A DNA stretch of 35,229 bases. Source: an uncultured Roseburia sp. (GTDB taxonomy: Bacteria; Bacillota; Clostridia; Lachnospirales; Lachnospiraceae). Shown piece after piece: positions 11,540-18,713 of the stretch; within the stretch, counting starts at the first letter, position 1; each line of letters begins with the position of its first letter. A program made the position numbers and the translations under genes. The notes beneath the pieces were generated by a model. The model saw only the letters and a list, made by a program, of their open reading frames with translations. It searched no databases and was not told where the DNA came from. Location of the stretch: contig CAMUHN010000033.1 in NCBI GenBank assembly GCA_947088675.1, positions 1 to 35,229 of the forward strand, read 5' to 3'.

Positions 11540-12328
11540 TCATTTTGTATATAAATTTTCAAAACGCAGCGGTTTTTGTGTCTTTTTATTATAGGCAAGC
11601 AGCATTGCCTCGGAGAAGCCAAGGGAACCGGCGCGCCGGTCCTTTGCAGTACGGCTGATCTCCTTGACGGAAATACAGCCAAGTTTTTCTTTGAAAGTGA
11701 TATCTTTGATGTTTTCTCCGTAACAGTGCAGCAGCCTTGCAAGGCCGTTCATCATATTGGCGCAGAAAGAGTTCGCCGCGCCCTCCCAGGTGGCTGAAAT
11801 CAGTCCCAGCGTGCGGTCTAAAATGTGAAATCCATAGCTGTCATAAATACGTTCCAGGGCTGAGACTGCGCAGATACAGCCGGGACCGGATTTGTCGGAG
11901 ATGGTAAGCCGGTAGGATTCCACAAGAGACAGGATCATAAGCTGTTTGTCGTTTCCGGCCTCAATATTCGCCATAAAAATTTCATAGGGAAGAAGCGCTT
12001 TTGTGTATTTCATCTGATTGGCAAAGATATCTGCTTCCTGCGTATATTCCAGATCATCGTAAATCATACACCACACGGGCGTCTCGCGGGAACCCGAAAC
12101 GAGCGCAATAATTTCAATCGTATGCTGGCCGTTAAAGACATAGTTGACGCCGTCACGGCGGCTGACTTTCACCGGATTGATCTGGCACAGGTCAAAATGG
12201 CCGGCTGCTTTCTGTACATGCTTTAGGGACAGATTGCGCTGATAAGTCTGGTTTGAGACAAGATTTTTGATCGGAATCAGCTCATAGTGCACATTCGGCA
12301 CATAGGCGCTTAAATTTTCTTCATGCAT
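11540..12328 (-). CDS. ParB-like fold protein, last gene of the recombinase operon
   Basis: This 262-residue protein starts at the ATG at 12328, with AAGGAGG seven bases ahead, overlapping the upstream stop by eight bases. Residues about 20-75 look like a ParB/sulfiredoxin-fold domain: IPIKNLVSNQTYQRNLS, a short linker, NPVKVSRRDGVNYVFNGQHT. NGQHT corresponds to the (D/N)GxHR loop that binds CTP or DNA in ParB-type proteins. The remainder is helical. It resembles uncharacterised proteins of Clostridia. ParA is absent, so plasmid-style partition is unlikely. It probably works with the recombinase and the other ParB-like protein; this is inference from coupling. Confidence 0.75.
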   Translation of the reverse strand: MHEENLSAYVPNVHYELIPIKNLVSNQTYQRNLSLKHVQKAAGHFDLCQINPVKVSRRDGVNYVFNGQHTIEIIALVSGSRETPVWCMIYDDLEYTQEADIFANQMKYTKALLPYEIFMANIEAGNDKQLMILSLVESYRLTISDKSGPGCICAVSALERIYDSYGFHILDRTLGLISATWEGAANSFCANMMNGLARLLHCYGENIKDITFKEKLGCISVKEISRTAKDRRAGSLGFSEAMLLAYNKKTQKPLRFENLYTK

Positions 12329-13193
12329 GGCGGGCCTCCTTAATTGCATTTTTCAAAAGAGCAGCAGCCCCGCAGAGATCGGTTAATTTATCGTCCAGTC
12401 TCTGCAGGGCGTCCGGAGAAATACGGAGCAGATCGGCTTTTTCCTGTGTATGTTTTATGGAAGAGATCCATGTGGGAATGGTAAGCGTCAGGCCGGAAAG
12501 AGCGTCGTCCGGAATATAGGAAGGCATCTGTTTGACAGCCGGCACAGGTTTGTGTGTCTGCAGATGATCAAATGCTGCGGTCATCTTTTCGGACGGGAGT
12601 TTGGACAGTCTGATGCACTCCCTTATGGACACAGAGAGTTCATTGCGAAAGAGCCTGACTGAAATTTCAGGCGCTTTTCCTGCGATCGCATCCATTGCTT
12701 TTGCGTAAGCGCCATATAAAGATATGGTTGTTGGCGTGATGCCGAATATGCTTTCCGCAACTGCCAGTGCGGAGCGGCGCTCTGATTCGTCGGTGAAGAT
12801 TTTATCCGGTAGAGAAAACGGGCATTTCCTTTTTCCGGAAAAGACATCGGAAAGAATACGTTTCATGGAAAGGTAACACTTTCCGGTTACATATCGGTGG
12901 TAAACACCGGTTGGCTTTTCTGATTTCAGAATGGTCTGGCAGGTAAAATAAAGCGCCTCATCACGGTTAAGATAAGCACGGTTTTCGATTTGGAATGATA
13001 AAGACCATTTGCGGCAGATGTTATAATCCAGATAATTATACAAAATAATGTTGTTCCACACTTGAATCGGTTTCTGGCAGCCGTTGTTTAGGAGATCCAT
13101 TTCCAGTTCGTGATATTTCAAAGGAGCAGGTTTTGGACAGATGCGTTCAAATTCCGGGTCGTATTTGAGAGGGGGGCAGTATTCTTTCGTCAT
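12321..13193 (-). CDS. ParB-like protein with a degenerate motif, third gene of the recombinase operon
   Basis: This 290-residue protein has an N-terminal segment (about residues 25-110) that follows the ParB N-domain pattern: ELEMDLLNNGCQKPIQVWNN, then IILYNYLDYNICRKWSLSF, where ParB-like proteins read IIDGHNRYEICKKHGIPF. Next comes NRDEALYFTCQTIL, where they read REEAIEWIIENQLG, and then YVTGKCYLSMKRI. The key DGHNR is thus replaced by LYNYLDY, which suggests loss of nucleotide chemistry but retained fold. A possible HTH lies near 140-165. AAGGAG precedes the ATG; the four-base ATGA overlap with the preceding gene (13190-13193) indicates coupling. Confidence 0.72.
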   Translation of the reverse strand: MTKEYCPPLKYDPEFERICPKPAPLKYHELEMDLLNNGCQKPIQVWNNIILYNYLDYNICRKWSLSFQIENRAYLNRDEALYFTCQTILKSEKPTGVYHRYVTGKCYLSMKRILSDVFSGKRKCPFSLPDKIFTDESERRSALAVAESIFGITPTTISLYGAYAKAMDAIAGKAPEISVRLFRNELSVSIRECIRLSKLPSEKMTAAFDHLQTHKPVPAVKQMPSYIPDDALSGLTLTIPTWISSIKHTQEKADLLRISPDALQRLDDKLTDLCGAAALLKNAIKEARHA

Positions 13194-13777
13194 TGCGGGT
13201 TCTCCTTTTTCTTTTTATCGTTTCGAATGCCAAATATAATACGATCATCCACAGCCTTTATCTGCATAATTGGTATTGGTTCTGCAGCAGACGTTTCGGA
13301 TCGTTTTATCGGTTCTTTCGGACAGGCCAAGTCAGATAAGCCGGCGGAGATGCTTACCGAAGGCCGGCATAAAATCTCCGGTGCAGTCAGATCAAATACA
13401 AGCAGGGAAGCAGAGTCGGACTGCAGACATTTTCCGATTATTCTGTATCGGAACTGCGGATGCCACTCCATAAGGAGGAAGAGTCTGGCGGCAAACAGCG
13501 GACAGCTGATCTGCCGGGGCGTACGACATGTTCGGCGGTGCCAGCGAAGAGAATCTTTCTCATCTTCTTTGCAGGGGCGTATGATCAGTTTTTTTTCGGC
13601 GGAATGTACCAGAATCTGGATATGCGTACAGTCCGGCAGTTTCTTAAGACAGGCGGCATTTACGGAACATTTGTTGTGCCAGACGCTGAAAGCCGGTTCC
13701 GATACATGGGAAAAATATTTGCGATGCGCTGACGGATCTTCGCCGTTCGGAAAAAAAGGGGAATTTGTTTCGATCAT
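13190..13777 (-). CDS. small protein sharing the recombinase C-terminal domain
   Basis: This 195-residue protein of unknown function lies second in the operon. Residues 34-139 align with the C-terminal region of the adjacent recombinase. HIQILVHSAEKKLIIRP matches YVELLVHPLQKTIVIRP, FRYRIIGKCLQSDSASLLVFD matches HKYRLSGVRLTRGAETVLLFD, and between these blocks both read W-R-PRQ-A-LF-W. The two are therefore paralogous domains. There is no catalytic serine or recombinase core, so it is likely a partner or accessory subunit. An AGGAGG site precedes the ATG, and ATGA overlaps occur on both sides. The last 50 residues are basic and variable. Confidence 0.8.
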   Translation of the reverse strand: MIETNSPFFPNGEDPSAHRKYFSHVSEPAFSVWHNKCSVNAACLKKLPDCTHIQILVHSAEKKLIIRPCKEDEKDSLRWHRRTCRTPRQISCPLFAARLFLLMEWHPQFRYRIIGKCLQSDSASLLVFDLTAPEILCRPSVSISAGLSDLACPKEPIKRSETSAAEPIPIMQIKAVDDRIIFGIRNDKKKKENPQ

Positions 13778-15615
13778 TTCGTAACCTCCTGTATGTCGTT
13801 TTTGATCACGGCAGAAATACCGAGTTTCAATTGCCCGGCGTCTGTGATGTTAAGACGGGAAGACTTTTCGCAGGGCTGACCGGCCTGCTGCGTGTTCCAG
13901 ACAGACAGCTGGCAAAAAGGGCTTGCTTCCTGCTTGTGTGCGCGCTGTTCGACGCTTTCCCCAAATTGGTGCATCCATTCTTTGGGACAGGCAGGGATAC
14001 ACTGGTTTGTAGTATAGGCAGATATGCCGGCTTCAAAATCCGGGGCATTCCGTGTATCCTGATTGGACGGACAGTTTGGGAGCAGCAGTTCGGCCCCTGC
14101 CGCGTCAAACAAAAGAACCGTTTCGGCGCCGCGCGTCAGCCTGACGCCGGAAAGTCTGTATTTGTGCTCCGTTTTCCAGCAAAACAGCTCATATAGTGTT
14201 GGTAAAAAAGCAGAGCCGCCTGTTTGGCGCGGTATAAGACGATCTTTTTTTTGTCTGGCCCATGGGATATAGTATTTGCTTTGCGACGACACAGATGGGC
14301 GTATGACAATTGTTTTCTGCAGAGGATGAACCAGCAGTTCCACATACAAAGACGGAGATTTTGCAATACAGGATGTGCTAAAATGCAGGGAGGAACGGGA
14401 GACGGTCATCGTAATTTTACCTGCAGTGCGGAAGAACTGCTCTCTGACAATTTCAAATCCCTGCAGTTGAATCTGATCTTCTTTCGCAGAATACGGGCGA
14501 ACAAAAACCGGTTTTTCATCAGGCCCTGATACAGACTCCGAGGCGCTGCGGTAATCGTTTGCGCAAAAACCGGCCCATTTTGGATGGACAATTACATAAC
14601 CGCGCAGCGCTCCTTCCGGTATAACGCTTAATATGGGAAAGAATGTCCGGTTTCCATATCGGGCGTTGCGGATCAATTGCTGTACGGCGATAAAGTCGTC
14701 GCGCTGTATAATCGGTTCATGGTGATTTTTACTCAGATACTGCGGACAGTTCTGCTTATTTTTTATGGCTCTGTGGTCAAGGTAATTTGGCGTCCATGTT
14801 TTGTGTGCCAGTACGTCTCCGCAATGGCGTTCGTTTTGCAGTATGCCAAGAACGGAGGAGGAGGACCAGCCGGAAGTTCCCTTTTTTGTATGACAGCCCG
14901 CAGCAGTCAGTAATTCTGCAATTTTCTGACAGCTGTAACCATAGAGGTACAGGAAAAAGATGCAGCGCACCGTTTTTGCTTCCTGCTCATTAATGACCAG
15001 ATTTCCGTCTGCATCCTGGTCGTATCCAAGCAGAGGAGGCGTAAGGAAAATGCCGCGCCGAAAACGCATCTCGATGGATGCGTTCATAATTTCACTTTTT
15101 GTATGGCTTTCTTCCTGCGCAAGCGTTGCAATAAATGACAGCATCATTTCACTGTTGTTTTTTAACGTGTCAATCTGTTCCGTTTCAAAGAAAACCCCGA
15201 CCGGCGGCTTCAGAGCGGCAAGCTGGCGGATATAACCGATACAGTCAACCACATTTCTCGAAAATCGGGATACGCTTTTTGTGACGATCAGATCAATTTT
15301 TCCGTCCGTGCAGTCTTTGATCATGCGCAGGAATGAGTCGCGGTGCGACAAAGACGTACCGGAGATCCCCTCGTCCGCGTAAATGCCGATGAGCTCCCAG
15401 CCGGGATGTCGGGCAATAACATCCTGAAAGTGATTTTTCTGAAGTTCATAGGAAGAGGTCTGTCCTGGGGCGTCAGTGGAAACTCTGGCATAGACGGCAA
15501 CGCGCAGTGTCTGGCCGGCAGAGTCAGAAGATGCCTTTTCCTGCGCCGGGATTACAATCAGATCGTCCGGATTGGCGCCGCGATAGCGCTGTCTGATTTT
15601 TTCCTTTTGTTCCAT
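13774..15615 (-). CDS. large serine recombinase without zinc ribbon
   Basis: This is a 613-residue large serine recombinase. The resolvase domain (about 35-175) has the nucleophile in VYARVSTD (Ser46), the DEGISGTSLSHRDSF block, and the arginines of SVSRFSRN (Arg117, Arg120). The recombinase domain spans about 175-300 (LLGYDQDADGNLVINEQEAK, WSSSSVLGILQNERHCGD). There are no paired CxxC motifs for the usual zinc beta-ribbon. Instead there is GALRGYVIVHPKWAGFCAND near 335-355 and a domain near 407-513 shared with the next gene. The start at 15615 is chosen because GGAGG lies just upstream; the frame opens 21 codons earlier. All catalytic residues appear intact. No att sites are visible. It leads a coupled operon with ParB-like genes. 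Confidence 0.9.
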   Translation of the reverse strand: MEQKEKIRQRYRGANPDDLIVIPAQEKASSDSAGQTLRVAVYARVSTDAPGQTSSYELQKNHFQDVIARHPGWELIGIYADEGISGTSLSHRDSFLRMIKDCTDGKIDLIVTKSVSRFSRNVVDCIGYIRQLAALKPPVGVFFETEQIDTLKNNSEMMLSFIATLAQEESHTKSEIMNASIEMRFRRGIFLTPPLLGYDQDADGNLVINEQEAKTVRCIFFLYLYGYSCQKIAELLTAAGCHTKKGTSGWSSSSVLGILQNERHCGDVLAHKTWTPNYLDHRAIKNKQNCPQYLSKNHHEPIIQRDDFIAVQQLIRNARYGNRTFFPILSVIPEGALRGYVIVHPKWAGFCANDYRSASESVSGPDEKPVFVRPYSAKEDQIQLQGFEIVREQFFRTAGKITMTVSRSSLHFSTSCIAKSPSLYVELLVHPLQKTIVIRPSVSSQSKYYIPWARQKKDRLIPRQTGGSAFLPTLYELFCWKTEHKYRLSGVRLTRGAETVLLFDAAGAELLLPNCPSNQDTRNAPDFEAGISAYTTNQCIPACPKEWMHQFGESVEQRAHKQEASPFCQLSVWNTQQAGQPCEKSSRLNITDAGQLKLGISAVIKNDIQEVTK

Positions 15616-15622
15616 AGAAAAC

Positions 15623-15662
15623 CTCCGGAAGTTATAGTTATATCGTATCACAGTGTTCTGTT
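15623..15662 (-). promoter_or_regulatory. weak promoter and possible operator of the recombinase operon
   Basis: On the minus strand TCGAAC and TATAAC are 17 bases apart, a poor match at the -35. An imperfect palindrome ACAG-AACA-CTGT falls in the spacer and could be the site of the divergent XRE protein. Tentative. Confidence 0.3.
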
Positions 15663-15794
15663 CGATTTTACCCCGCATGACAGAAAAAGAAAACAGACTG
15701 CAGGTTGATTTTTAACCGACAGGGCAAGAAATTTGAGAGAATATAGATGCCTTTGTCCAAACAGGGGTTAAAATACGGCACAGGAGGAAGAAAG

Positions 15795-16145
15795 ATGGGA
15801 TCAGTTAATTATTGCAGAATCGGAAAGACAATACGGGAGGCGAGACTCAAACGCGGTTGGTCGCAGGCTCGTCTTGCAGAAATGGCAGGTGTGAGCGCCC
15901 AGTATTTAAGCCGGATTGAAACCGGAAAGAAACAGGCGAGTTTACAGGTAGTTTACGGTATTGCGCGCGCATTGCAGGTGTCCATGGATTTGCTGACGGG
16001 AAACGAGAGACTGGAACAGGAGCGGGAGCTGCCTGCTGCGGGGCGTATCCTGTCGGATTGCAGCGAGTATGAAAGGCAGGTTCTGCTTGACATATTGGAA
16101 GCCTCCAAACAGAGCCTGCGGGTAAATGCGCGGTATCGGGAATAG
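15795..16145 (+). CDS. XRE-family HTH regulator, divergent from the recombinase operon
   Basis: This 116-residue protein has a Cro/C1 helix-turn-helix at about residues 8-65 (IGKTIREARLKRGWSQARLA, then SAQYLSRIETGKKQASLQVV) and a C-terminal helical tail. The start at 15795 is set by AGGAGG at 15782-15787. It diverges from the recombinase across a 179-base gap and ends 12 bases from the convergent GNAT gene. The layout resembles phage-type repressor/integrase control, and it is the natural candidate repressor of the recombinase operon; this is inference. Confidence 0.9.
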   Translation: MGSVNYCRIGKTIREARLKRGWSQARLAEMAGVSAQYLSRIETGKKQASLQVVYGIARALQVSMDLLTGNERLEQERELPAAGRILSDCSEYERQVLLDILEASKQSLRVNARYRE

Positions 16146-16718: not shown

Positions 16719-18713
16719 TTACTGATACTGTCTGCGGAACTGTACCGGAGTCATATCGTAGGAAGCTTTAAACAGGCGGTTGAAATGTTCGACGTTTTCA
16801 TACCCGACATAGGCCGCAATGGATTCTACTGTCTGGTTCGTCTCCTTTAACATTTTGCGCGCTTTTTTCATGCGAGCCTGTTTGACTGCATCCTGAAATG
16901 TGACGCCTGCTTTCTCTTTAATATATTTGGAGAGATAAGTGCGCGACAGGTTAAAATGTTCGGACAGAGAGTCGAGCGTTACGTCCACATAGTTTTTCTG
17001 AATATAATTCATGATATCGACAATACGCTCCTCACGGCCCTCTTTGATATTTTCATATTTTGCCATCTTATTGGCGGCAGAGACAAGTGCGGCGATCGAA
17101 CTTTTGATAATATCTTCATCTATGCCGACGCCCCAGTAATTTTTGCCTTTGCAGATGATTTCAACATACGCGGCCGCTTTCGAGGAAGAACCCTGTGAGA
17201 TTGCGTGTTCCTCGTAGTTTGCAAGCTCGTAGCTGACGCCAAAATACATTTTAATTGCATTGCTGACGGCATCCAGACGGCCGTTTCCGCTGGTCTCAAT
17301 GACGCGGGCGGCCAGATCCTGTTCGATGGTTACTTTTGCAGTAATACCGTCTTTTTGTTCGAAGTGACAGTCCGGTATTTTGAAGATATCGTGGATATTG
17401 ATATAGTTTTCCTCAAAGATACGGTAAATATCGGTTGGGGACAGCTCCTGGTGCATACGGTCGGAGACGCCTTTGACCAGATACCCGATCTCCTCTTTCA
17501 TTTTATTCGGAAGCGACATCCCAAAGTTTTGTTTCAGGATATAGGCTACGCCTCCCTTGCCCGACTGGCTGTTGATGCGGATTACATCAGATTCGTATTC
17601 GCGTCCGACGTCTTTGGGGTCAATCGGAAGATAGGGCACATCCCACCGCTCGCCGCTTTTTCCTGCCTGCCGCCATTCCATGCCCTTTGAGATGGCATCC
17701 TGATGGGAACCGGAAAATGCGGTAAACACAAGATCGCCGGCATACGGCGTTCTCTCATATACATCCATTCTGGTAAATGTTTCATATTTTTCGCGGATGG
17801 AAGAAATATTGCCAAAATCCAGTTTCGGATCGACGCCGTGGCAGACCATATTCATGGCAAGCGTTACGAGATCGACATTGCCGGTGCGTTCACCGTTGCC
17901 GAACAGCGTGCCTTCGACGCGGTCTGCGCCTGCCAGAATGCCAAATTCCGCGTCGCTGATGCCGCAGCCTCTGTCGTTGTGCGGATGGACGCTCAATATG
18001 ACATTGTCCCTGTAATTTAAATGTTTATGAATATATTCGATCTGGCATGCGAAAACATGCGGCATTGCAATCTGTACTGTCGTAGGGATATTGATAATGG
18101 CCTTATGCGCTGCATCGGGCTTCCATACGTCAAGTACGGCGTTGCAGACTTCCACTGCGTAATCCACTTCTGTCCCGGGGAAACTCTCCGGACTGTACTC
18201 AAATGTGAAATTGCCGTCTGTCTCTTCGGCCAGTGTTTTTAAAAGTACGGCCCCGTCGATGGCAAGCTGTTTTACCTCTTCTTTGCTTTTTTTAAATACC
18301 TGCTCGCGCTGAGCGACTGAAGTTGAGTTGTAAAGATGAATCACTGCATGAGGCGCGCCTTTTACGGCTTCAAAGGTTTTTCGGATAATATGTTCCCTTG
18401 CCTGCGTCAGAACCTGGACTGTCACATCATCCGGTATCATATTCCGTTCAATTAAGGCGCGCATAAAATTATATTCGGTATCGGAGGCGGCAGGAAATCC
18501 TACTTCGATTTCCTTGAATCCGATGTTTACCAGCATTTCAAAAAATTCGAGTTTTTCTTCCAGGCTCATCGGCTCGATTAAAGCCTGATTTCCGTCTCTT
18601 AAATCCACACTGCACCAGATCGGCGGCTGCTCAATTGTATCTTTTTTTACCCAGTCATATGTCACTTCCGGCGGCATAAAATATGACCTGCCGTATTTCT
18701 TTGCGATATCCAT
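16719..18713 (-). CDS. leuA: 2-isopropylmalate synthase fused to an AraC DNA-binding domain
   Basis: This 664-residue protein condenses acetyl-CoA with 2-oxoisovalerate, the first step of leucine synthesis. The catalytic barrel has RDGNQ (39-43), the metal ligands His243 and His245 in VHPHND, and Asn279 in GERTGN. The spacing from His243 to Asn279 (36) equals that of the known family ligands. A LeuA C-terminal regulatory domain runs to about 545, and the last 105 residues are an AraC-type double HTH ([20 protein letters not shown], then [20 protein letters not shown] and [17 protein letters not shown]). GGAGG fixes the start at 18713. The fusion joins a leucine-binding enzyme to a DNA-binding domain, so it may be a self-sensing regulator; this is inference. 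Confidence 0.93.

Follow-up and report, generated by a model that had tools for sequence, protein, structure and literature searches.

What is the function of a compact locus in which a serine recombinase is joined to a partner resembling part of itself, to two candidate ParB-like proteins and to a divergent regulator? The locus lies in 35,229 nucleotides of DNA from an uncultured Roseburia sp. (contig CAMUHN010000033.1), the whole of which is called the window here. An XRE gene on the plus strand (15795-16145) diverges from a tight minus-strand operon (15615-11540) with the order recombinase, ORF2, ORF3 and DUF6551. The whole module measures about 4.6 kb and is composed as follows.

15795..16145, plus strand: XRE-family regulator, 116 aa (PF01381, E 1.7e-18), divergent from the operon
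15616..15794, no strand: intergenic control region separating XRE from the recombinase; its only inverted repeats are short and imperfect
13774..15615, minus strand: serine recombinase, 613 aa; a catalytic and a Recombinase domain are joined to a beta-rich C-terminal domain, and there is no zinc ribbon
13190..13777, minus strand: ORF2, 195 aa, stand-alone homologue of the C-terminal half of the recombinase (E 9.5e-37)
12321..13193, minus strand: ORF3, 290 aa, member of a family that is ParB-like; this copy has lost the nucleotide-motif residues
11540..12328, minus strand: DUF6551 protein, 262 aa (PF20188, E 1.1e-28), of a ParB-CTPase-fold family according to the accessible part of PMC12704722

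The five genes named in the original prediction all proved to be open reading frames at these positions. Start sites were chosen from ribosome-binding sites and from the sister species, giving 15615 for the recombinase, 15795 for XRE and 12328 for DUF6551; the last is preceded by AAGGAGG. An alternative recombinase frame from 15678 would encode 634 aa and runs into the promoter region. As predicted, the operon genes overlap at 13774-13777 and 13190-13193, both ATGA, and, with the DUF6551 start at 12328, over eight bases at 12321-12328. The flanks had been described as free of phage and relaxase genes, and a Pfam scan of 12 neighbours in the window indeed detected neither of these, nor any secretion family; for the remainder of the window the list of open reading frames was read. 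The adjacent LeuA (isopropylmalate synthase, 16719-18713) is fused to a C-terminal AraC-type HTH (PF12833, E 2.5e-21), a fusion also present in the sister species as a 664-aa protein with 97% identity.

The recombinase contains a Resolvase catalytic domain (PF00239, E 1.9e-26) followed by a Recombinase domain (PF07508, E 9.4e-22), the latter being found in 60/60 relatives, and its N-terminal half matches serine integrases on att DNA. The catalytic serine is kept in all 134 recombinases compared, in solo and element-borne copies alike. The zinc ribbon PF13408, which had been reported missing, is absent from the window protein and from all 60 relatives scanned, its place being taken by a beta-rich C-terminal domain. 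As it lacks the zinc-ribbon domain with coiled coil, we file the protein as a variant and not as a standard serine integrase. ORF2, first described as a domain-sharing partner, is a free copy of the C-terminal half of the recombinase. A PDB sequence search with the ORF2 profile gave no match. Sliding clamps ranked top in a Foldseek search with ORF2 and were dropped, with E values of 0.02 or higher, a TM of about 0.1 and an rmsd of about 16 A. In one branch of the family the recombinase is preceded by an extra recombinase-like protein (L080 5355-5996, L140 5362-6048, L064 5306-5926; L numbers denote mapped loci), which is probably inactive because its catalytic serine region is altered.

Among ORF2, ORF3 and the DUF6551 protein, Pfam returned a family match for the last alone, with 100.8 bits against a curated cut-off of 26.8. 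DUF6551 proteins adopt the ParB-CTPase fold, and CTP or ATP binding has been reported for phage DUF6551 fusions, both according to the accessible part of PMC12704722. The assignment of ORF3 is less direct. Its family shows a weak profile match to the host Spo0J (E 9e-4, probability 22%), and no match to ParB_N or another ParB family of Pfam was obtained in 98 ORF3 members at E 0.01. Residues of the C- and P-motifs are present in the family consensus and missing from the window copy. ORF3 is thus, as judged from its sequence family, ParB-like at family level by its motif, but not a canonical ParB by profile or by the motif residues of the window copy. The claim of two ParB-like proteins therefore stands for the DUF6551 protein, a clear family member, but holds for ORF3 only at the level of its family. 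Nothing was returned by profile comparisons of DUF6551 with the host ParB (4 rows) or of ORF3 with DUF6551, and PDB sequence searches gave three chance-level matches for the ORF3 profile and none for that of DUF6551.

Relatives were sought through the DUF6551 protein at 58% identity or more. With one genome per species 211 were found and 80 kept; viral contigs yielded 82 DUF6551 relatives, of which 80 were kept; and deposited phages contributed 17 records at 60-80% identity, two of which were opened and belong to Ca. Heliusvirales. On plasmids, five records contain a distant actinobacterial DUF6551. In total 165 loci were mapped, 110 of them with more than 6 kb upstream (roomy loci), 90 with room on both sides and 75 short on one side. 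The original prediction took the four overlapping genes for one functional unit, and the neighbourhoods bear this out: recombinase, an ORF2-type gene, ORF3 and DUF6551 occur together and in the same order, at unrelated loci, in 109/110 roomy relatives. The grouping is therefore more than chance. Taken singly, the recombinase is present in 109/110, ORF3 and at least one ORF2-type gene in 110/110 each and an upstream XRE in 108/110, the lone exception to the complete set being a broken copy (L032). As all loci were fetched via DUF6551, many are near-copies and 75 lack room, these counts speak for the DUF6551 subfamily.

The module also travels as a block with defined borders. Near-identical modules were found between unrelated flanks, for instance L049 and L051 (5.5 kb at 95.7%) and L035 and L037 (7.8 kb at 92%). 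In a quick FastTree of 99 rows out of 134, the window copy belongs to a supported clade of nine rows without adjacent integrases, which includes L030, the copy on a mobilizable element. An intact solo module was noticed at L067 (5879-10837), far from Clostridia, in a record named Deltaproteobacteria bacterium Smac51, flanked by small open reading frames at one end and by transposase-like fragments and polA at the opposite end.

Where do the relatives reside? The locus had been judged unlike an ordinary mobile element, and this view does not survive the comparison: modules of relatives sit in prophages that split comEC, in ICEs and in one mobilizable element, often near the element's end, or else alone. 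In Kineothrix alysoides, comEC is split by a 58-kb prophage. Its module lies 8 kb from one end, and two other serine recombinases form a pair 5 kb from the opposite end. Another comEC prophage has its module 280 bp from comEC; at six further loci comEC starts at about residue 250 of the full-length homologue; and in four genomes the tadA beside the module matches a 409-aa homologue only as far as residue 288. Elements with the module that interrupt tadA or comEC, both secretion or DNA-uptake genes, were recorded at L034, L035, L037, L038 (about 11366), L042, L053, L071, L075, L077, L188 and L207-L210. In 8/39 carriers the module has a T4SS coupling gene at a distance of about 2-37 kb, and in 2/39 a portal gene at 26-35 kb; missing genes mean little here because many carriers are draft contigs. 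We read the cassette as one that spreads horizontally, mainly among Clostridia, and that viruses and conjugative elements mostly carry in related gut bacteria. Many relatives are part of prophages and of conjugative or mobilizable elements, where they probably serve as the integration/excision module.

Two carriers gave no second recombinase. In the 60-kb Butyrivibrio ICE region, the left end of which was not reached, and in the 47-kb contig with the mobilizable element, the far end of which was not reached, profiles found no tyrosine or other serine recombinase; the tyrosine recombinase profile did give matches elsewhere. Ten unknown proteins of the Butyrivibrio ICE yielded no integrase or transposase. 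Its module occupies a middle position, not an end. Other carriers are better equipped. A large serine recombinase follows downstream in 38/90 loci (14/56 genome loci, 23/30 viral loci and one phage record), and in the one phage scanned for it both members of the extra pair carry zinc ribbons. A tyrosine recombinase is located 6-39 kb away in at least 10 of 22 carriers; at L058 and L069, additional serine recombinases occur within about 17 kb. Across several clades of the module, the target of the comEC prophages tracks the other serine pair. On the tree, the label "integrase downstream" undergoes at least 20 changes, the mean after shuffling being 31. A low ORF2 count as a mark of integrase-less copies (6/52 versus 0/38, p 0.037) was not used, as it ignores kinship and counts one site twice among the six.

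Carriers that often hold another integrase lend themselves to the main rival explanation, in which mobile elements carry the module as a cargo cassette that serves defence or inter-element competition, its recombinase complex acts on incoming DNA and the solo copies are chromosomal defence genes. Its spread over phages, ICEs and solo sites would fit, as would its frequent position near element ends beside defence-type genes, among them C5 methyltransferases, AspBHI- and NgoFVII-type nucleases and, by eye, Dnd-like genes next to L083 and L030. Selection on the solo copies, described below, would fit too. However, mobile elements bear defence genes anyway, and these neighbours were seen without a background count for enrichment. 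Moreover, the four operon proteins have no PADLOC match at E 0.1, XRE matches generic HTH models, and the catalytic serine is kept in every recombinase compared. We regard a cargo or defence role as unlikely, but give it some weight on account of the second integrases, the defence-type neighbours, the mid-ICE position and the fact that no att site was found.

Direct repeats between the ends of 21 loci reach 8-11 bp at most and share no common core, which leaves room for a short att core. In five members of the genus the GNAT homologues have different surroundings and offered no empty site for the window copy, and genome G176 has some flank genes of L066 in a different order. In the loci and genomes examined, no att core, excised circle or empty site was found. 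Thus, in line with the original prediction, the window copy cannot be recognised as an element's edge, there being no phage, relaxase or T4SS family in the 12 neighbours and no end repeat above 11 bp in the 21 loci.

Solo copies like that of the window occur at about 10 chromosomal sites where, as judged by eye, both flanks consist only of host-like genes or IS fragments: the window and its sister, L025, L032, L040, L055, L061, L066, L067, L102 and L106, of which L032 is broken and L040 partly so. The XRE stop may come very close to the stop of a host gene, at 12 bp in the window, 8 bp in L102 and 27 bp in L040. A DNA-level search detected the module in 4/60 genomes of the genus, one of them the L066 genome, at three sites that are all solo. 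The copies of the window and the sister species share site and neighbours, and their dS (0.48-0.74) resembles that of five flanking genes (0.42-0.60). Omega is 0.05 for DUF6551, 0.21 for ORF3, 0.31 for ORF2, 0.21 for the recombinase and 0.15 for XRE (flanks 0.02-0.17), and over 60 bootstrap values no module gene goes above 0.57. The shared site, flank-like dS and low omega values indicate that the solo copy was inherited vertically and kept by selection. The sister recombinase contains an in-frame TAG, either real or an assembly error. Between XRE and recombinase, the sister locus (L024 7040-7414) also has roughly 160 bp of extra sequence that resembles a small palindromic insertion, its inverted ends being CGAGAACGT/ACGTTCTCG.

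Two further explanations concern these solo copies. A decaying prophage or ICE remnant kept by chance could explain the stop codon in the sister, broken copies such as L032 and in part L040, and the loss of ORF3 motif residues in the lineage of the window. Yet the five window frames are open, omega does not exceed 0.31 or, at the bootstrap maximum, 0.57, and the 12 scanned neighbours contain no element debris, so that we consider a remnant very improbable. A domesticated chromosomal host system, for instance a switch that works by recombination or inversion at sites of its own, would agree with vertical persistence at one site under purifying selection and with solo copies at about 10 sites, including all three in the genus. 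Against it stand the rarity in the genus, the unrelated sites, the stop in the sister recombinase and the failure to see an invertible repeat pair at the ends; domestication has, in our estimation, a small probability.

We lean slightly towards the view that the locus is a horizontally spread DNA-recombination (integration) cassette of which the window holds a minimal solo copy under purifying selection. This reading is favoured because of the anatomy, the invariant catalysis, the place near element ends and the transfer as a bounded block. Counting against it are the failure to find an att core, excised circle or empty site, the other integrases of many carriers, the comEC target that tracks the other serine pair, the mid-ICE position and the in-frame TAG of the sister recombinase. 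Nor would one usually expect an element that is purely selfish to persist alone by vertical descent and under selection. The recombinase would cut and rejoin DNA by serine-integrase chemistry, as its domains and catalytic serine suggest. Site binding and synapsis are probably the task of the C-terminal domain that replaces the zinc ribbon and, by homology, is also supplied in trans by ORF2. Judging from family properties, ORF3 and the DUF6551 protein may be loaded onto DNA close to the sites, possibly with the help of CTP or ATP, and may assemble or gate the recombination complex. XRE presumably represses the operon. A bolder proposal, which we put forward tentatively and hold to be somewhat doubtful, is a new multi-subunit serine recombination machine with an AbrB/MraZ-like DNA-binding domain in cis and in trans for the zinc ribbon, gated by two ParB-fold nucleotide-binding proteins; the solo element, about 4.6 kb long, would then be the smallest form in which this machine is autonomous.

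If true, this would reveal a widespread, unstudied class of serine recombinases that work without the domain held to control direction and synapsis and have ParB-fold NTPases as partners. Site-specific recombination would become a further field of action of the ParB-CTPase fold, hypothetical genes close to the termini of common gut prophages and ICEs would find an explanation, and a recombinase tool with a new kind of control might result. Our literature search, beyond the reach of which lay subscription papers and preprints, found no description of this operon. Its parts are known families or their relatives; what appears to be new is their conserved association, in which the recombinase has no zinc ribbon and its C-terminal half recurs as detached copies.

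Three known systems come closest to the locus. Two deposited members of the Ca. Heliusviridae/Heliusvirales gut phages carry the module at one end, whereas the window has no phage genes among the 12 Pfam-scanned neighbours, and the nine core genes listed for Ca. Heliusviridae in the accessible part of PMC9226167 do not include the module. With the DUF6551 proteins of PMC12704722, as far as that paper is accessible, the window protein has PF20188 membership in common, well above the cut-off; nucleotide binding, reported there for other members, is putative in the window subfamily, and the main text of the paper does not contain the words recombinase or integrase. With large serine recombinases and serine integrases, such as the C. 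difficile conjugative-transposon recombinase 3g13 and the Listeria prophage, Bxb1 and phiC31 integrases, the window recombinase shares the Resolvase and Recombinase domains. In contrast to these enzymes, recombinases of the window type have no zinc ribbon (0/60), carry another C-terminal domain that also exists as free proteins, and are accompanied by obligate-looking ParB-like partners.
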